Of a stretch of DNA of 32,598 bases, positions 4,219 through 32,470 are shown piece after piece. The stretch covers positions 1-32,598 of the forward strand of contig BCKE01000015.1 in the NCBI GenBank assembly GCA_001600495.1, given 5' to 3'. The position numbers were made by a program, and so were the translations under genes. Within the stretch, counting starts at the first letter, position 1, and every line of letters begins with the position of its first letter. The stretch is from Pilasporangium apinafurcum. Taxonomy: Eukaryota; Oomycota; Peronosporomycetes; Pythiales; Pythiaceae. Below the pieces are notes generated by a model. It was not told where the DNA came from, made no database searches, and saw nothing but the letters and a program-made list of their open reading frames with translations.

Positions 4219-5784
4219 CTAATTTTGTGTATCATCGGCAGAGGCAAAGCGCATTTGCCAGTCTCGCGGCCAAAACGGGGACGAATATGGCATCTCAAAC
4301 GAGTTCAATTGATCTGGTGGGTGATACCAGTAATTCAGTGCCAAATGCCCATTTACTGAACCAAAGGACTCGACTTCATGGAACCACGACGCCGGGAGGA
4401 ACAACATCTCTCCCGCTTCAATCTCACAGAACGCTACTTTCGCGTCCTTGAACTCTGGAAATTCTGCGTGTAACTGTTTTTCTGATGCCGAATCCTTCAA
4501 CAAGTATGTATCGATCCGACTAAAGCTCACAGGATCCTTCACGGTTTTATCTACTTTTCGAGATTTAGATAGCGCATCCTCCTCGTCAAAATCTTCGAAT
4601 TCATCTTCTACATCTTGGTCTCCCACATCATCTCCTTCTTCATCGACATCATCATCGTCGTCTCCATCTTCATCAAAATGGAAAGGACCAAATTCTCCGT
4701 CTTCTGGTTCGGATAGCCCATCTTCATCCTCTCGCTCTACGCGTAAGACACCAAGAATAGCCTTATCCAATCGTTCTTCAGCGGCAGCGAGTCGTTGTTC
4801 TGCACCCTCTTCGCCATTTTCCATGGCTTGTTCCGCAAGCGCCAGCTCTTTTTCCGCATCATCTTTCTCAATCGACGCGAGCGCAGCAGCTTCCGACATG
4901 GGATCCGCACCATAGGCAGTCGTTTCTTCACCTTTGTAGTTGATACGTCCATTTGGATGCACATGTACCAACTTGCCGCGCGTGTACATCTTCTCTGCGT
5001 CTGCAGGTGAATACAATCGGAATCGCTTCTTGCCACGCAGCAAGATGTAGAGATTGTCGTGGTAATCATGATGTAGGCCAGATGAAGAGCCGTGTGTGTT
5101 GTTGCCCATCCAGATGTTAATATTCTGTGGGACGAGGTTACCCAACAGTGCCGGTCGCAATGGGAAGTCACTTTGCAACTTTGCGATAAACGGTGCCATG
5201 ACTGCAGGACGGCCATCGTCTTCTGCTTCGACATCCTGCGTGGTTAAATAATGCAGCTCATCACCTTTGTCGATTAGATGCAACAATTCCTTGAATTTCA
5301 TTGGCACTTCAATGCCTCGACCAAATTTTTCCTTCGTGGTCTCGCGCCGTTCCACTGCCAGGATTTCTTCACCTGCAAGTTTCTCCAAATGCTTGTTCGT
5401 CCACTTATTAGGTGCAGTAAACGCCGCATCTTGGATGAATCCACGTAACACTACAGGCTTTCGTGTTGCTACGTATTTTTCAAAGAAAAGTTCTGGTGTG
5501 ATGTCATTAACGTTGATGCGTTCAAGCTCATAATTTTGTTCAGGAACAACAAAGCCTTCATAGTGATTGATACGTGTAGATTCAGCACCATCTATCACCG
5601 ATATTGGCGAGGAACCAGCATTTCCTTCTTCTTTTCTCGAACGTTTTCGAGACGAAGCATCGGGTGATGCGTCTGCTGGGCGAGCAGCTTTCCCGTTTGT
5701 CATCACGTTTATCGTGTGCTTTCTAATTGATTGCCTTCCAAGATTGAAGCTCTTCGGCTTCGCGCCACCAGTACCGTATTTCAT
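4219..5784 (-). CDS. JmjC-domain 2-oxoglutarate dioxygenase, JMJD7-like
   Basis: 521 residues, uninterrupted, starting at the ATG at 5784; codons upstream in frame lack a Met. The protein begins with a basic, probably nuclear-targeting stretch (SSRKRSRKEE). The cupin/JmjC core starts near residue 100 with KYVATRKPVVLRGF. The iron-binding H-x-D is His238-His239-Asp240 within GLHHDYHDNLYILLRGKKRF, the usual JMJD7-type arrangement. The third ligand is probably the His in LFLPASWFHEVES, followed by ALNYWYHPP at the end of the core. Family members hydroxylate protein side chains (JMJD7 acts on lysine) using Fe(II), O2 and 2-oxoglutarate. Unusually, about 150 residues of Ala/Glu-rich helix and very acidic Asp/Glu sequence split the core between the H-x-D strand and the final strands. 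The substrate cannot be inferred. A spliceosome-associated or PSER-type JmjC protein is an alternative. Confidence 0.85.
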   Translation of the reverse strand: MKYGTGGAKPKSFNLGRQSIRKHTINVMTNGKAARPADASPDASSRKRSRKEEGNAGSSPISVIDGAESTRINHYEGFVVPEQNYELERINVNDITPELFFEKYVATRKPVVLRGFIQDAAFTAPNKWTNKHLEKLAGEEILAVERRETTKEKFGRGIEVPMKFKELLHLIDKGDELHYLTTQDVEAEDDGRPAVMAPFIAKLQSDFPLRPALLGNLVPQNINIWMGNNTHGSSSGLHHDYHDNLYILLRGKKRFRLYSPADAEKMYTRGKLVHVHPNGRINYKGEETTAYGADPMSEAAALASIEKDDAEKELALAEQAMENGEEGAEQRLAAAEERLDKAILGVLRVEREDEDGLSEPEDGEFGPFHFDEDGDDDDDVDEEGDDVGDQDVEDEFEDFDEEDALSKSRKVDKTVKDPVSFSRIDTYLLKDSASEKQLHAEFPEFKDAKVAFCEIEAGEMLFLPASWFHEVESFGSVNGHLALNYWYHPPDQLNSFEMPYSSPFWPRDWQMRFASADDTQN

Positions 5785-6229
5785 AAAATTATTTATTCTT
5801 ATTTTCACAACATAATTTTAGCCAATTAAATAACTGCCATCATTTGAATTATGTGCATTACAGTACATTGGAATTGGAATGACTGGATATGATTGAACTG
5901 CTCATTTCAACGCGCAGAAATGCAGCAATGACCGTGGGACAGAAGCAGTGGAGAGTTAATAGAAACCACCAGAGCACAACATAAATATGATAAAAAAAAA
6001 AACTAACTTCATCGTGTAATTGTTTGTGTTGGTGTTGCTTCTACAGAATGTGCGCGTCTTGCTTCAAAAGGTTCCACCACGAAACAACTATTAGAATTTT
6101 CCCCTATGACTTTGTTTCTAAGGAGAAAACCAAACGAGGACATAAGACTATGAGGATATCGATCGAATCATTTCATCTTTTCTGACTCGAACTTGATCCA
6201 CTGCATAGAGCGCGCAAGTATGAAAGAGC
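5785..6229 (-). other. intergenic region between JmjC and DNAJC7-like genes
   Basis: 445 bases that should contain the promoter of the JmjC gene (reading left) and the 3' UTR of the DNAJC7-like gene. It includes a poly-A run near 5992-6002. No open frame, RNA gene or repeat of note was seen. Confidence 0.4.
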
Positions 6230-8086
6230 TTAACCGAAGTGGAATCGCACGTTTCCGCCTTGACCACCGAAGCCATGATTGCCCATTCCACCCATTCCGC
6301 CCATACCTCCCATGCCACCACCGCCACCGAAGAACATCTGGAAAATCTGCGAAGGATCAACACCACCCATACCACCACCCATGCCATGGCCACCAAAGTC
6401 GCTGTCGAGATCTTCCAAATCCACTCCAGAGTCGTATCGCTGCTTCTTCTGCGGGTCTGAGAGTACAGCGTAGGCCTCGCCAATGTCTTTGAAAGTAGCT
6501 TCGGCTGCTGCTTTCTCTTCGTCTGTTTTATTTGAGTGACGATCCGGGTGATACTTCAGCGCGAGCTTCTTATACGCCTTCTTAATTTCATGCTCAGTCG
6601 CATTCTGAGAAATCGCCAAGATCTTGTAATAATCTTTACGCTTGGCTTTCTTGAGCTCCATCTTTGTCTCACGAATGCTACGAACAACGATGCAACATAT
6701 ATGTCAGCAAGAAAGATACACAACAGCTACGGATTCCTTCAAGTATTCACGCAATCAGCAAACCTGTTTTGAATGTCACGCTGAGCATCATCACCGACAA
6801 GCTTCGACGCTTGGTCATATTCACGTAGGGCCTGTTCCAAGTTGGATTCTCCACCAAGAGCCTTCAAGCACGCAGCCTTTCGCAGGTACGCTTTAGCATA
6901 CCCATGATCATAGTAAATGGCCTTGTCACAATCCTTGATGGCCTCTTCATGACGGCCAAGACGGGAAAGTGCATTGGCACGATTACAATGAATCTTCGAA
7001 TTGAAAGCCTTGTTGCTCGGGTCGATCAGCAGACACTCAGTGTATTTCTCCACTGCTTCTGTCATTTTGCCTGCTTTGAACGAGTTATTGGCGTCCTCTT
7101 TGCTATTCTCAAGTGCACGAATGCGCTTGATCTCCTTCATAAATTTACTGTTATCTGGATCCGAACGTAATGCCTGTTGCAAGTGCTTGATGGCACTAGG
7201 GAATTCTCCTTGGAAGTACAGGCACCGGGCTCGCAAGAACAATAAATCGGGACTGCTCGAGTTTGTACGCATCAATTGCGTCAGCGCCGCAAAGGCTTCG
7301 TCATAGCGCTCACAGCCAATCAGCGCTTCTCCGCGCAACAGCTTGATGTCATTCGCACCGGTACAGACCTGCAATGCGCTGTCAAAGCAGTGCACAGCTT
7401 GCGAGAATCGTTTCTACCAACAAAACACAAGTACATCGCATTAGCATCACACTATACCCAACACCACTACTTCGGATACAATCAACTATGCAAGATCATA
7501 TCATACCGCTGTCAAATGCTCTTTGCCTCGCTCCACTTTTTCCAACGCAATTTCTACCTGGCGCTTCTCTGTCAATAGCGTCGGATTATTGGGATCACGA
7601 ATTAAGCCCGCTTGAAACGTTTTGATAGCGCCATCATGATCGCCCTATATCATCCAAACCAATTATCATATGCAAAATGGTTAGCAAAGACTGAGTCACA
7701 TCTCTACATCTGCATCTTCCATGTCTGATTTCTTCCATCCACCCAACTCAGGAATCCCACTCACTCTTTTACAAAATGCAATTTCTATCTCCATTTGGAC
7801 TACAAAAATAGTCACGTACCAATGCAAGTTGAGCCTTGGCCTTGCGAACATACCCTTTGAAATACGTCGGATCGAAGACAATCGCGCGGTTGCAGTCGGT
7901 GATCACGTCCTTGTGCTTGCCGATCATGAACGACGCCGCCGCACGGTTACCGTAGTAGGCTACAACCGTCGGGGCCGCGTCGATCGCCTGCGTATACTTT
8001 TCAATGGCGCCCTGGTAGTCGCCGCGCTTGTATAGCTCGTTGCCCTCGGCCTTGTATTGCTCGGCTATCGCATCGCCGTTCTCCAT
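6230..8086 (-). CDS. TPR-repeat J-domain co-chaperone, DNAJC7-like
   Basis: Four exons on the minus strand: 7820-8086, 7507-7644, 6764-7413 and 6230-6677. The introns are GT-AG and all phases close, giving 500 residues against 494 for human DNAJC7. The ATG at 8086 begins [20 protein letters not shown], the first TPR helix; codons upstream are not TPR-like. Tandem TPR motifs fill residues about 8-340, for example [20 protein letters not shown] and [22 protein letters not shown] domain follows from about 367, with the HPD triad at 395-397 needed to stimulate Hsp70. The last 60 residues are Gly/Met/Phe-rich. The family couples Hsp70 and Hsp90 in client folding in the cytosol or nucleus. The first intron is 175 nt, more than twice the usual length here. 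Confidence 0.93.
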
Positions 8087-26482: not shown

Positions 26483-29400
26483 TCATTCAAAGACATCACT
26501 ACTATTGGCACCAATGTCAATCGTCCAAATCGTTCCCGGCTTGAGAAATTTTACAAGCGCGCTTCTATCAGTTCGACTGGACAAGAGTTGTTTGCTCGGG
26601 TACGCAAAGATGTTGATTTGCGACGGTGCGACGTGCGCCACTTCTTCCACGTCGTAGAGGAACATTGCGCACTTCCATTTCACCTCATCAAAGCCGCCAC
26701 TGATCTGATCCATGTTCAATTCCATCGTTCGCACTTCTTCACCTGATTGTCCCATGCGTCGAAGATTCACAGTGCGTGTGCGATTCCGTGACCCGGAGAA
26801 CGAAAACCGATCGGAAAACTTCTTCATCAAGCCGCCACCACTGCTGTTGGAACTTGCGCTTGCTCTTGCAGCTGATCCCACAAAATCTGCTTCGGAACTG
26901 CCACTGTTACCGCGGCTCGTACGACCAAAATCTCCACTCGTTTCAGTGCCAGTCTCATTATCACTCCCACTGCCATGCGATCCCGTGCCATCATCATGCC
27001 CGTCTTTGCCGTTGAGTGCAAACCGAGAAATTTTGTGTACTGAAGCGCCAGTCGGCGTTAGCACTCCAAGAGAACCAGACCCACCGCCAGCAGTTGATGA
27101 TGCTGATGCACCGGTGTGGTCTTTTTCGTTACTAACCCCGCTACCAACACCAGTTCCCGTGTTCGTGCTGGAATGCCCACCCCCTCGTGATAACAGCTGC
27201 CTTGTAGTTGCAAGCAAAGAGCCACCTCTACTACTCGCCTGTTGCTGCGCGGCTTGTTCAGCGATCTTCGCCTTTGCTGAGAGTGCTGCCTGTTTCGCAA
27301 TGCGCATCATCGCATCATTAATCGAGTGATGTAGAAGTGCGTGTTGCAACTCAGCGAGCGCCTCCCGCATTCGTTCCTCTTCCTCTGAATTAGCTACTGC
27401 CAAATAACTTTGGTGTTTGTCGGATCCATGTGAGAAGATGCCATTCATTCGAGACGCTTCTTGGATTTTTTCCAAAAGCACGTATTTTAAATGCTTAAGC
27501 GAAACAGTCCTGGATTCGATGTGGTCTGTTTCTGCTGTTGCTACTGAATATTCTGTTGCGATGGACGATTTTAATACTCGAGAGATGTACTCTTCCAGTT
27601 CAGTACAAAACGTTTCTGCCAATGCCTGTGTCGATTGTCCGCACTGCACATACAGCTAACACCGCTTAGTTTCTTCACATGAATTACAACAGAAAATAAG
27701 CAGACGAACGCAAAATACCTTTTTTTCAGAAAAGAGCTCGCTTGATCGCTGTTGAGAAGTAGTGCTAAGATAACCCAGAGGCGACGTAACAGGTGGAACT
27801 GGAAATGCCTGGGAGAAAAAATCTACCAAATCCTGAGGACTTGATGCAGCTGCTACAGGTACGGGTGGCGCTGATGTTGTTATCGAAACAGGTAATGGAG
27901 CTGTTGATGGAGTGAAATCACCAAAGCCGTCGTCAGCGTCGCCTTCTGCTTGCGCATCAAATGTACTTGATGATTGCTGAAAGTCATCAAAGTCATCAAA
28001 GCCATCATTTTTGTCTGCACTCTGAGTAAAATCCCCAAAATCATCGTCTGGTTCGAATGTGTTTGAGCTTTGTGCAAAGTCCCCGAAATCCTCGTCAAAC
28101 TCACTAGCTTCAGCGATAACTGGAGCAGTCGAACTCTGCGTAAAATCTCCAAAGTCGTCTCCTACCTGAGTAGATGGATCAATATTTGGTGTTGCAGATA
28201 TTATTTCAGTCTGAGGCGATTGCTTTGAAGTATCTGTGCTTGCATCGCTCTCAAACTCGTCAAATTCAATGCCTTGTTGCTCAAATGTGGCTTCGCGAGT
28301 ATAAGTTGTTGCTGTATCCGAAGGTTTGTCGTTCTGTGTGAATCCTCCAAATTCGTCCTCTAATACGACAGTGTTTTCTTGAGGTGTTGCTTGCGATGTA
28401 AAGTCCCTACTATCATTGTCTGCGTGAAAGCTTTCGGCTGGGTGTGAAGTATTAAAACTGTCATAGTCATCCTCTTTTGAGATGGGTGTATCGTCGATTG
28501 AATGACATTCTTGGTCTTTTACATACGCAACATCACCACTATTCCCGCGCTCTAGACTGTCAACAGCTTCACGAGTGAGTGCGGCATCTTTTGATTTTTC
28601 ATCACCAATACAGGTGCTCTTGGTGACTTCGTATAATTCAAGTGAATTCGAATCGACACGTGCTTGTGGATCCATACTAGCCACGTCACCTTGGACTGGC
28701 TCGTATCCTTCTGATTGCGCATCTTGTGGATCACTTTCAGCATCTTCACTCGCTGATGCGGATGGGTTCAGCGAAATAAAGTCGAAATGGGAGAAAGAAG
28801 AAGACTCTGATGGCTCCATCGTGACCTTCTCACCTACATTGGCAGCAGTAATCGATTCTTCGACTTTGATTGCGTCTGGGATAGCGAATTCATTCTCCCA
28901 TTGATCATCAAAACTCGATGAATTAGTTTGTTCCGCTTCTACGGGAAACGCTGGCTCTTCTTCTGAGCCAGTGCCTTCTTGTGCAAGAGCAATTCCACCA
29001 CTAAACGGATCAAGTGTAGAGGCAATGTCTACTTCGGCAGAATCACATGCTTCATAATTTCCTTCAACATCGGTCGTTGTGGATTCTGACTGTAAAACGA
29101 ACGATCCGTAAAGAGATGCCGGAGCCGATGATGATGACGATGGTGGGGGCGGTGCTAACAATTCGGCGTCCAAACTGAAGAGGTCATCATTGGCAAAGAA
29201 GGATGGATTCGAGGCACTACTTTCTCCGAACGTCGGGTTTGAGATGCTTGCTACAGGGGAAAACGATAAGAGCTGTCCCGTCGACATTGCTGAAAAGGAT
29301 GATGACATGGATGACGACATTGATGCTGATGATGCAGACAATGAGGATCCCGGTGGTGGTGGCAATGGCAGGAATGAAGGCGGTACTTTCTTCTCTTCGT

Positions 29401-30037
29401 CGGTCGTCGAACTCACTGTATTCAAATCATTAGCAGAGCCAATTGCACTACTTGCCGTTGTTGTCGATGTGGTGATGTTCACAGAAGCAGACGCACTTGA
29501 TGGAGCAGGATTCGACCCATTGTCCAAGCTAAACTTGTTGGAAAAACTCGAGCTCGCACTGGTTGGTGCACTTTTCGAGAGCCCTAACGGCGAGAAACTA
29601 AGCAGTTCACGGTCTTGAATCGGTGACGGCAGAATACCAGCGAATGGGTCATCCTTCGGTGAATATGGCTTCATCACTGACGGAGGAAGAGACGATAACG
29701 AAGATGTCCGTGGAGATGCTACAGGTGAAAACGACAAAAGCTTTGGCGAACCCAGGATGTTCTTATTGTTGCTACCAGCTAGCGATGCGCTGATCGATGG
29801 CTCGCTTCGTGTACGTGTATCAGAAACCGTAGTAGCAGCCATTCCGCCGTAGGCGTCCGCAAACGGATCTGCATCAAACTGTTCGATTGGATTCGGTATT
29901 GGCCGCTCTGCCGCCGCAAATGCCGCAAAATCATCGTCATCATGCGCCGCAGAAGATGGTGCATGTGCAGCAGACCATATTTCCGTTGTCTGTGCCGCTG
30001 ATTTCCCGCTTGTCATGGACGCATTGCCGCTTTCCAT
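26483..30037 (-). CDS. DPF/DFGDF-motif protein, putative clathrin-adaptor accessory factor
   Basis: Two minus-strand exons, 27719-30037 and 26483-27655, joined by a 63-nt intron, give 1163 residues. The N-terminal two-thirds is low complexity with short linear motifs: DPF three times (DADPFADAY, KDDPFAGIL, TLDPFSGG), LLSFSP three times, and a cluster of acidic Phe motifs near residues 600-720 (DEFGGF, DDFGDF, DEDFGDF, DDDFGDF, DDFDDF, DGFGDF). DPF motifs bind AP-2 appendages and acidic FG-F motifs bind AP-1/GGA ears, so this is probably an endocytosis or TGN sorting factor like aftiphilin. Exon 2 encodes a helical region (LEEYISRVLKSS...), Ala-rich coiled coil, Gly/Ser linkers and a folded-looking last 90 residues of unknown family. 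Two in-frame acceptors 12 bases apart (27655, 27643) could give isoforms. Confidence 0.72.
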
Positions 30038-30505
30038 CCCTCCTGCCGATCCTATCTTTGCCTGGGCGTGCGTAGTGGAATGAATATTCAGATGCGAAGC
30101 TCCTGGACACGTTTCATAAAAAGAGAGTCCAAGTTATTTATCAATTATCGTTTCTATATATCAGATAATAGTGATATACTGCACTGTTCGAATCAGTGTG
30201 TTACTATGTTGTGTCACTTAAGTACGTTATTGCCATTTAACCTTTTTTCCTCAGGTGCAGTAGAGAAAGTAGAGTTGTAGTCTATGAAGTAGACATTGTT
30301 TTACAGTGTTAGTTTCTACTGGGCTTCTCAATAGCGGAGCATATTGAATTCAAGTATTTACCACCTCACGTCCATCTATTGAGTGTCGCTTCAACACTAT
30401 TCGCCAAAACAGAAAGAACCGCAGTTTTGAGAAACAGTATAATTAAAATGATCGAAAAGATCAAACCAACTACGAGGCGTTCTTGTGTTTGAACGTTGTG
30501 GTGAA
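30038..30505. other. region between adaptor-accessory gene and Fanzor-type gene
   Basis: 468 bases between divergent genes. It should contain the promoter of the minus-strand gene and any left end of the Fanzor-bearing element. A short inverted repeat GTCTA...TAGAC lies at 30281-30295. No terminal repeats or target-site duplication could be recognised. Confidence 0.35.
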
Positions 30506-32322
30506 ATGGCATCAACGAGTGACGGTATTGAAGAGAACACCACTAAAAAGTGGAAAGCTCGACAAAAGCAAATAGTCTACACAACGGTGAAGACTGGCTG
30601 GAGAAAGTTCTCCAAAGACAAAAGAATAGCAAAAAAGATTGATGAGGCTGTGCGAGGCATCTATGCTGGCATCCGCCCATGTTCTGCATATATTGCAAGT
30701 TGGCGAAGAACTCCATTGGATAATAACTTTTTCAATCGACGCACACCTGCAATAGCCAACTCGGGCGGCAGCGGAGAGGTCCATTCTGACTTGGAGACCA
30801 GTCTAGACCTTTACAGGACCCAACACCCTTCAGTTTATGAATCGACAGAGAAGAAATCCTATATGAGTCAGATGTTGGTTATGATCGCTCAATAAGCAAG
30901 GCAGAATCTTCAAGTCAGCAACCGATTGACGTTCTACTCCTGGTTGCGTAAGTGGATGCGCTTGCAGATACCTCTTCATAACAGCGCCTATTTTGAAAAA
31001 CACCAAGACAAGATAATCAAGAGTGCTATTTCACTGCTGGTCTATGCAAGCACCCAAACTCAGCATAGCTTATCCGCCTTGATCCCCGTGTACTCCAGGT
31101 TCAAGAAGTATCCCATCCCTACTGCGAAGATTGTTTGGATGCAGGAGTTATCGGATAGAGTGAGAAACGAGATCGAACCGCTGCCACTCGACTTGAACAA
31201 GTCACCAGAACGTCACATGCCCTTTCTCGGCACAATGCTGACAGACATACAAACTCACATGGATGATGGAATGAAGGGTTGCCGAGTCTGGTCTCTGCTT
31301 CCACAGAAACACTTCAAACCCATTTTCATCAAGATCAACATCATCGTCCTGAAGCATCTTGCTAAGGCTTTGGGTGACCCTGTTGAGCTTTACGCCGACG
31401 AAGCTGAGTTATGGCGCACGTACTTCAATATAGGTCTTGTGACCAAAGTCCAGCGAAAGGAGTTTGTGCACTTCATCTCGACCGACGGTATGTCAGTTGG
31501 TGTGACAATCTCCCGTCCAAAGCTTTCCGCGAGAGAGCAAAAAGAGGGATTTTCTCTTGAAGACCGGATCATCGGTTTAGATCCAGGGAGAAAGAAGATC
31601 TTCACTGCTGTTGTCTACAAAGATGAAAGCATGGCTACGCTGCAAAAATTGAAAGAACGTGAAACATGAAGTCATCCACTGGTCTAAGGGTTGTGTCTAT
31701 AGAGTGCGGCTACCATAGACGAACAAAGTTGACGAAAGAGTGGATTGATGCTGAGCCTGACATCAAAACCTTCAATGAAAACGTTCCTTCGACAAAAGTT
31801 CCAGACCTTGCCTCCTATTTGAAACGGGTGAGATTTTGTCTCGTGTATTTGGATCGTCTTCTTAACGTGTATTCATTAAAGAAGATGAAGAGGCTACGAT
31901 GGTCGACCTACATCCGTCGACAACAGACGTACGAGAAGGTAGTCAAGAACCTTACAGGTAGCGATAAACGAACTGTTATCGCGTATGGAGATGCAAATTT
32001 CGTAAGCTCAGCTAAAGACGGCATTGCTGTTCCCGCAACGACCCTACGGAAGAAAATTGGTTCCAGATGTAGTGTTGTTGATGTGGACAAGTTCAGGACG
32101 AGCAAGCTGCGTTGTGCTTGTCACAAGAAGATGAAAGAGTTAGTCCTTGACGGAAAAATTGTCAGTGACGATCTTTATGGCGTGCGATACTGCAAAAATA
32201 GTGAATGTCATCGCACATTGTGGGACTGTGACAGCAACGCCGCAATCAACATTTTGAGACTATTCATCGACGAAGTGAAGAAAAAGAGGAGACTTAAAGC
32301 CTTCACGAGGGGTAAAGGATGA
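30506..32322 (+). pseudogene. Fanzor (eukaryotic TnpB-like RNA-guided nuclease), disrupted
   Basis: The reading starts at ATG 30506, reaches a TAA at 30893-30895, continues in the same frame to TGA 31667-31669, then carries on one frame over to TGA at 32320-32322: about 605 residues in total, usual for Fanzors. N-terminal and wedge-like parts include CRVWSLLPQKHFKP and FVHFISTDGMSVGVTISRP. RuvC-like motif I is IIGLDPGRKKIFTAVV. Later come WRLRW-like LRWSTYIRRQQTYEKV, VIAYGDANF, VDKFRTSKLRCACH (zinc knuckle, partner Cys in YCKNSECHRT) and WDCDSNAAINIL, equivalent to the RDxNAA motif III. The family cuts DNA guided by an omega RNA and travels in transposons. One stop and one frameshift suggest decay or sequencing error. 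Splicing cannot rescue it: candidate introns are under 32 nt. Confidence 0.85.
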
Positions 32323-32425
32323 AGTGACGCTCGAAGTCAAAACTGAGGTGATAAAAGTCCTCACCGCTATGATCCGGAAACGGATGAGTGTAACTATTTT
32401 CCCATTTGTACCACGCATGGTACAA
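32323..32425 (+). ncRNA. candidate omega-RNA scaffold downstream of Fanzor
   Basis: Immediately 3' of the Fanzor stop are stacked hairpins: TGAGG/CCTCA (32344-32363) or the alternative GGTGA/TCACC (32347-32365), ATCCG-GAAA-CGGAT (32372-32385) with a GNRA tetraloop, and TTGTACCA-CGCA-TGGTACAA (32406-32425). TnpB and Fanzor guide RNAs come from the 3' end of the gene and the adjoining element end, so the position fits. The boundaries and the guide are not determined; this is inference from location and folding. Confidence 0.4.
32406..32425. repeat. 8-bp perfect inverted repeat with 4-nt loop
   Basis: TTGTACCA (32406-32413) and TGGTACAA (32418-32425) with loop CGCA; an outer CAT/ATG extends the stem past a two-base bulge. 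It could be the last hairpin of a guide RNA, the hairpin terminus of an element, or a transcript-end structure. Confidence 0.6.
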
Positions 32426-32470
32426 TGATGTGGGGAATAAAGGTTAGGATTGGTGCTGCTTTTCCTTGCA

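Follow-up and report, generated by a model that had tools for sequence, protein, structure and literature searches.

A decayed Fanzor1 element with TA-flanked ends and a structured 3′ tail in the oomycete Pilasporangium apinafurcum

INTRODUCTION

Near the right end of the stretch of DNA analysed here (32,598 nucleotides, called the window throughout, which forms the start of contig C15 in a 36.5 Mb genome), a first-pass annotation described a Fanzor-type RNA-guided nuclease gene and suggested that it was a transposed copy. What kind of protein this locus encoded, whether it is still a gene, and by what means it moved are the questions considered in this study. We conclude, with a probability of about 0.9, that the feature is the decayed remnant of a non-autonomous DNA transposon, in which the one gene recognised coded for a Fanzor1 nuclease. 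The protein belongs to a definable family, the gene is damaged, the TA-flanked ends recur in many copies, and a structured, co-varying 3′ tail stops at the end of the element (Table 1).

Table 1. Features of the Fanzor1 copy, in window positions
Feature	Position	Strand	Basis or remark
Left TA, putative target-site duplication, within TTTA	30238..30239		Sequence
Element	30240..32444	+	Type-B left end ACCTTTTTTCC..., right end ...GGGGAATAAAGGT; ends recur beside unrelated flanks
ORF1, N-terminal part of the Fanzor1 gene	30485..30895	+	ATG at 30506; TAA at 30893; matches P0023 and P0028
ORF2, same frame as ORF1	30896..31669	+	TDG motif 31481–31489; first RuvC Asp 31580–31582 (the D of LDPG)
ORF3, different frame	31666..32322	+	Remaining RuvC and zinc ribbon; homology from about 31702
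Lys at the relocated RuvC glutamate	32089..32091	+	Counterpart of SpuFz1 E541 by alignment (numbering of PMC10432273, in part)
Last RuvC Asp, retained	32230..32232	+	Start of DSNAAINIL; preceding RD-motif Arg changed to Cys (32227–32229)
Probable omega-RNA scaffold	32320..32446	+	Stop codon to right TA; small stems and terminal hairpin 32398–32437; z −3.3; covariation
Right TA, putative target-site duplication	32445..32446		TA in 30/30 right ends; search pattern favours TA
Host flank, would-be guide segment	32447..32461	+	Position only; 14–15 nt by analogy with SpuFz1 (PMC10432273, in part)

RESULTS

Three reading frames make up one Fanzor1 gene

Read in sequence, ORF1, ORF2 and ORF3 make up one Fanzor1 gene, and all three are collinear on the full-length relative P0028 (624 aa). 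ORF1 matched another full-length relative, P0023, at E 3e-9, and the metagenome relative P0001 (378 aa) was matched by ORF2 with 69% identity (E 1e-67) and by ORF3 with 64% identity (E 6e-97). The four motifs reported by the first-pass annotation, LDPG, FRTSK-L-RCAC (32092–32121), CKNSEC (32191–32208) and DSNAAINIL, are all present in the expected order, far above chance as judged by the ORF matches to P0001, P0023 and P0028. The last of them is a mutated form, since it follows a Cys, while relatives typically read (D/N)RD-x-NAA-x-NIL. The single reading that had been assumed holds in that the gene is collinear over the three ORFs, but not in its frame: ORF1 and ORF2 share a frame that is interrupted by a TAA, ORF3 lies in a different one, and the overlap of ORF2 and ORF3 is ATGA.

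The PDB matches of P0001 at E≤0.1 were three, all of them Fanzor1 proteins: SpuFz1 (2.4e-10) and those of Guillardia theta (0.012) and Parasitella parasitica (0.038). In a second search for relatives, 94 proteins reached E≤0.001; of those with a named source, many belong to the green alga Trebouxia. A family profile was made from 26 of these together with the three window ORFs. This profile matched the three Fanzor1 structures at 3.3e-39, 1.3e-34 and 2.9e-30, with the four remaining PDB matches (LaTranC and Cas12f) ranging from 5.7e-4 at best to 9e-3, and no chain named TnpB or Fanzor2 was matched at E≤0.01. The profile comparison proposed in the first-pass annotation thus came out strongly for Fanzor1 with the family profile, but poorly with the window ORFs alone: ORF3 matched SpuFz1 at E 0.11 and scored 18.5 bits against PF07282 (cut-off 26.3), ORF2 had no PDB match at E≤1, and ORF3 was absent from the 150 scored places of a PF07282 scan of the genome. 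Among its relatives, P0001 (28.8), P0003 (27.6) and P0052 (31.4) scored above this cut-off, and P0028 (21.2) and the genomic copy L060 (25.4) below it. Fanzor1 kinship extends over most of the length, as seen in the window ORFs, P0001 and the family profile. The very long 'open frames' in the PF07282 list proved to be runs of N at the loci inspected; another such run, 6.9 kb or longer, starts at the end of the window, right after 32598 (L009:3100 onward).

In a protein alignment of 29 rows (A5; counts over rows with a letter), the active site is conserved at the first Asp (26/26), the Glu (23/24) and the last Asp (19/23), as are the four zinc Cys (20/24, 24/24, 22/22 and 21/22) and the Arg of the RD motif (22/23). 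The Asp of the TDG motif, which marks the Fanzor1 WED domain according to Yoon et al. (PMC10711439, in part), is found in 24/24 rows, the window included. The published Fanzor1 motif, D-X(125,275)-[TS][TS]XX-C4-X(5,50)-RD (PMC3627910, in part), fits the family at the positions of P0001, and the window departs from it by its broken frame, a Cys changed to Arg and RD changed to CD. Likewise, the relocated RuvC glutamate is present in the family and absent from the window copy. Membership of this family suggests that its proteins would cut DNA under the direction of a guide.

That the protein belongs with Fanzor2 or TnpB instead of Fanzor1 is very improbable. PF07282 (weakly matched) and the relocated glutamate are common to both, and the same genome harbours a Fanzor2-type family with a nearly identical 5′ end, but the profile finds the Fanzor1 structures (3e-39 to 3e-30) and, at E≤0.01, no chain that bears the name of TnpB or Fanzor2, the protein of that Fanzor2-type family (L012, below) behaves in the opposite way against the PDB, the TDG motif is present, and an HTH_OrfB match was not found in ORF1. 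The family named in the first-pass annotation is accordingly sharpened to Fanzor1 by the profile, the hits of P0001 and the TDG motif, whereas 'nuclease gene' overstates what is present, because the window copy is dead.

A Pfam scan of the 10 other window ORFs matched six of them to ordinary cellular domains, the neighbour domains being FYVE/DUSP, cupin/JmjC, DnaJ, TPR and Castor/Pollux, with Kelch weak and under the cut-off; four had no match, including the neighbour at 27656–30037.

The window copy is decayed, as are the other genomic copies examined

By its sequence, the window copy is a pseudogene and would be non-functional. It carries one in-frame stop and two small frame-breaking deletions; the stop is common to 4 of 19 aligned genomic copies, one deletion occurs in 0/19 and the other in 1/19. 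At the relocated RuvC glutamate, where the window has Lys, Glu is kept in 17 of these 19 copies, another carries Asp and the last has a deletion, and the window is the sole exception among the 24 rows of A5 at this site. In addition, the first Cys of the zinc ribbon has become Arg and the Arg of the RD motif Cys. That the locus is instead a domesticated host gene with programmed frameshifting is hardly credible: the ATGA overlap of ORF2 and ORF3 would suit it, but the change of frame is due to small deletions found in 0/19 and 1/19 aligned copies, and the active-site Glu is lost.

The first-pass annotation had also looked to related intact copies; related copies are many, but none of the 20 examined is intact, the longest open stretch in any of them being 452 aa, as against 651 aa in the majority columns of the 20 copies. 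At the three codon positions, these copies differ from the majority by 5.4, 5.1 and 6.4%, a weak bias, which indicates that decay after insertion dominates. The window copy would be unable to make the protein, though its 3′ tail might still be transcribed. When differences from the majority were counted by class over window positions 30237–32446 and 19 other copies, C>T plus G>A formed the largest class in each of the 20; in the window, it accounts for 65 of 146 differences.

The gene lies in a repeated element with sharp, TA-flanked ends

The feature had been given as 30506..32322 in the first-pass annotation; it is larger and comprises a whole element of about 2.2 kb. A DNA search of the genome gave 460 candidates, of which 40 were scored; 37 of the 40, the window among them, cover 1,898 bases or more, and the 36 other near-complete copies among these scored places show 83–87% identity. 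The copies end sharply, the left end being ACCTTTATTCCCC-like and the right end reading GGGGAATAAAGG[T/C], and the flanks outside are unrelated. Long palindromes form the right end, part of which has been lost in a few copies, and the left end of the commoner type (type A); a second type of left end (ACCTTTTTTCC...) is found in the window and, among others, in L038, L042 and L054. The family end TTAACCTTTATTCCCC, with at most one mismatch, occurs at 505 genome sites (reversed control, 0), some of which are inner arms because the ends are palindromic. Among contigs of viral origin, 44 stretches with the pattern were found, none of them a relative.

The first ~320 bases of the type-A left end contain a second, opposite-facing end-like sequence, TTAACCTTTTTTCCCC or near to it (for example at L040:3791, L044:3768, L052:3678 and L048:3806), which looks like a nested small element or an additional left end.

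At the right ends (n=30), TA follows in 30/30, with a search pattern that favours TA, and the next base is A in 23/30; the terminal base of the element is T or C in a ratio of 23:7. At the left ends (n=27, with some rows out of register by 1–2 bases), TA is found in 23/27 and a T before it in 26/27. The repeat that hosts the insertion at L041 is present without it at L038 and L054, and the comparison by eye fits one copy of the target, although these paralogues have diverged and show TCA or TGA in place of TA at the insertion spot. The suggestion of a transposed copy is thus borne out by the sharp ends, the TA flanks, the many copies and the paralogous empty site. By eye, the repeat hosting the L041 insertion resembles the 5′ region of the Fanzor2-type elements described below.

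Copies, ends and TA flanks are those of a gene carried by a eukaryotic DNA transposon. TA duplication and terminal inverted repeats (TIRs) are traits of Tc1/mariner elements, and the preference for TTAA targets complicates this assignment; a TA duplication with a T-TA-A preference is the best reading, its rival being a duplication of TTAA. Helitron2, described with end hairpins and short asymmetric TIRs that are subterminal at the 3′ side (Bao and Jurka, PMC3627910, in part), was considered and rejected: the inverted repeats here are terminal at both ends, and the empty site is consistent with a short duplication. A comparison of the left and right flanks, in which some left rows are 1–2 bases out of register, gave no significant asymmetry as a TAM signature (Fisher p 0.054).

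Search for the transposase

No transposase of the element was found among the DDE_3 and piggyBac matches of the genome, the former being compared with the first 100 of the 505 end sites. DDE_3 had 59 matches in the genome, one of which, a mariner transposase at C34, adjoins a terminal repeat. It was placed outside the element from the 281 bases inspected, because the 3′ tail of a Fanzor element on the opposite strand lies just downstream of the transposase.

The element would be piggyBac-like rather than Tc1/mariner-like if it duplicated TTAA instead of TA, which we consider unlikely. TTAA is found on both sides at most sites, and one of three piggyBac transposase matches in the genome has a decayed, family-like end about 370 bases downstream (L057:3410–3472). 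However, the variation at the right flank (A in 23/30) and at the terminal base (T/C 23:7) exceeds the 5–6% per-site difference among copies, a matching left end was not seen at the L057 piggyBac locus, and the oomycete Fanzor1 elements that have been classified are Mariner (PMC3627910, in part). At L057 (G000:C5:658288 region), the sequence in question is a decayed terminal palindrome downstream of a 546-aa ORF of the piggyBac transposase type; piggyBac was set aside as the partner, the evidence for it being only suggestive.

The 3′ tail is structured and its pairs co-vary

The tail of the window copy folds at −39.2 kcal/mol (z −3.3), and that of L044 at −70.7 kcal/mol (z −11.9), both forming small stems followed by a terminal hairpin, which comprises 30 pairs in L044. 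Removing 8 loci without a readable right end and 2 duplicates from the 40 left 30 tails, 28 of which were aligned (A1), the short tails of L018 and L026 being left out; a second alignment (A2) dropped 7 further rows (six short-palindrome copies, including the window, and L032). Over the 28 copies, 92.5% of cells were paired in the L044 structure as compared with 91.0% in shuffles. Both partners had changed in 12 pairs, as compared with 7.4±1.6 in shuffles (3/500 shuffles reach 12), and doubly changed cells numbered 34, against 14.4±3.4 (0/500 reach 34). When the partners were slid along the same 28 copies as a control, 38–43% were paired, with 3 to 7 doubly changed pairs. Further pair types showed no excess in the 28 copies (44, against 43.8 in shuffles). 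In the 21 long-palindrome copies, there were 9 doubly changed pairs (5.2±1.3) and 22 doubly changed cells (10.4±2.2).

Published Fanzor1 RNAs are predicted to form three stems and to include the TIR and the target-site duplication (TSD) (PMC10711439, in part). The SpuFz1 non-coding RNA is located 3′ of the gene and reaches across the right inverted repeat (IR), with a 75-nt scaffold and a 14–15-nt guide that extends past this repeat (PMC10432273, in part). By analogy with these, the structured tail after the stop codon is a probable omega-RNA scaffold, with the flank as guide.

The terminal hairpin contains nine of the 12 co-varying pairs, and their covariation could also come from conversion between the DNA arms. 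An explanation in which the palindromic ends serve the transposase only or reflect conversion at the DNA level, and in which the 3′ tail is not an omega-RNA, draws on this concentration within the terminal palindrome and on the palindrome of the type-A left end, which cannot lie in a 3′ RNA; we regard it as somewhat doubtful, since upstream of the palindrome four small helices are kept (94.6 to 99.1% of cells paired, 3/19 pairs doubly changed), the left palindrome is nearly invariant by eye (18 copies) as against up to 5 pair types at right-end pairs, and the position and architecture of the tail agree with the published Fanzor1 RNAs.

Rfam had no match in the window at the gathering score. 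A likeness of the L044 terminal palindrome to mir-764, seen at a loose E-value (33.8 bits, cut-off 82), was dismissed as a chance likeness of long hairpins. A tRNA match in the flank of the same copy (L044:4201–4272, +) scored 30.9 bits, with a cut-off of 29.

Fanzor2-type elements in the same genome start with nearly the same bases

At L012 (G000:C62:15700-25600), a gene on the minus strand (4754–6265) has an open frame of 504 aa with the domains HTH_OrfB_IS605 (2e-10) and PF07282 (3.7e-21). Its PDB matches at E≤0.01 numbered 20, the best being the TnpB-like protein L79 (6.3e-25), which we take to be a mimivirus Fanzor2, and none was named Fanzor1; by its sequence, the protein is classed as Fanzor2-type. 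Other members were seen at L002, L004, L006 and L007.

The family of the window starts with TTAACCTTTATTCCCCACTT, and its first 20 bases are nearly common to the Fanzor2-type family: L006 and L007 start with TTAACCTTTATTCCCC-ATTT and TTAACCTTTATTCCCC-ACTT, respectively, L012 has one extra C, and L004 is a variant. At the 3′ end, the Fanzor2-type elements read GGTTA in 4/5 places and GATTA in L007. A genome search with this type gave 719 candidates, of which 40 were scored. In 22 of these, the match is confined to about query positions 1–589, and in 19 of the 22 it adjoins another to about 1545–1637 or further; these 19 are derivatives without the middle of the gene. Two of three Fanzor2-type 3′ tails folded no better than shuffles (z 0.50 and −0.38; the third, −1.96), and for this reason we make no RNA claim for this family.

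The simplest reading is that one transposase served both families. We tentatively extend this to a combined proposal, which we hold to be plausible without favouring it, that one class of ends mobilised Fanzor1 and Fanzor2-type nucleases and that the Fanzor1 terminal palindrome was at once a transposon end and an omega-RNA hairpin. If this were true, the passage of Fanzors between element backbones would be visible in a single genome, and the site of a transposase and the structure of a guide RNA would be one co-evolving object.

DISCUSSION

Since oomycete Fanzor1 elements have been published since 2013, the window copy is in itself ordinary: Bao and Jurka (2013; PMC3627910, in part) described Fanzor1 in Pythium ultimum (six families), Phytophthora and Albugo, and their examples from P. 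ultimum include Mariner elements. Taken alone, the locus is a familiar type of fossil. The family is useful in that its many copies, together with their flanks, form a natural record of guides and target motifs, and less ordinary than the copy itself are the Fanzor2-type elements, which start with an almost identical stretch of 20 bases. Such Fanzor1 and Fanzor2-type elements, almost alike at the 5′ terminus, provide a direct case in which to study how eukaryotic transposons capture these nucleases. This nearly shared end and the co-varying terminal hairpin, in which the sequence shifts and the pairs are kept, are the features worth following.

In intact ancestors, mobility would have depended on a transposase acting in trans, which used the ACCTTTATTCCCC-type ends to insert the element at T-TA-A sites. 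Transcription of the 3′ tail would have yielded an omega-RNA, with the terminal palindrome serving both as transposon end and as the last hairpin of the scaffold, and with the first 14–15 flanking bases as the guide. Excision would leave a rejoined site that reads TTTA and then the guide sequence; Fanzor1 would cut there, and repair from the element-bearing chromatid would restore the element. At the uncut right junction, the guide is preceded by GGTTA or GGCTA, so that a requirement for a tetranucleotide motif, for example TTTA, would leave this junction untouched.

The closest comparison is with Spu-1, the element of SpuFz1 in Spizellomyces punctatus (PDB 8gkh; PMC10432273, in part), which has a length of about 2.1–2.2 kb, one Fanzor1 ORF, TIRs and a putative TA duplication, and whose structured RNA region lies 3′ of the ORF and ends at the right TIR. 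Spu-1 also has gene-less derivatives (ghost elements), the counterpart here being found in the Fanzor2-type family. The present family, known from sequence, differs in its long palindromic right end, its TTTA rather than CATA flank and its decayed copies. The Fanzor1 element of SfAV is, like ours, non-autonomous and codes for Fanzor1 alone, with TIR and TSD predicted in the reRNA scaffold (Yoon et al., 2023; PMC10711439, in part), but its host is a virus and its duplication is a 4-bp TTAN (Bao and Jurka, PMC3627910, in part). The Fanzor2* elements of Chloropicon and Mercenaria (PMC10711439, in part) resemble the L012-type family in having a Fanzor2-type gene between inverted ends, with the difference that the 5′ terminus of the L012 type is almost the same as that of a Fanzor1 family in the same genome. 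By title and start of abstract, no study on palindromic-end Fanzor elements in oomycetes came up in our literature search, the scope of which left most subscription papers outside, and the word 'palindrom' is absent from the main text of Bao and Jurka (2013; PMC3627910).

The PUl elements of Pythium ultimum, compared by description only (PMC3627910, in part), are likewise oomycete TA-duplicating elements with Fanzor1; PUl-1 and PUl-4 are Mariner, and in PUl-4 Fanzor1 is the only encoded protein, as in the window. At L001 (C7), a mariner-type DDE_3 match (C7:591696–592100) lies 0.8 kb from a PF07282 match on the opposite strand (C7:592916–593110), which is the best-scoring PF07282 match in the genome. 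At L013 (G000:C135:11800-20189), two TnpB-like open frames of 691 and 703 aa are flanked by long inverted repeats, and a DDE_3 (Tc1/mariner) fragment lies tail to tail with the 691-aa frame; this locus is possibly a transposase-plus-Fanzor element like PUl-1.
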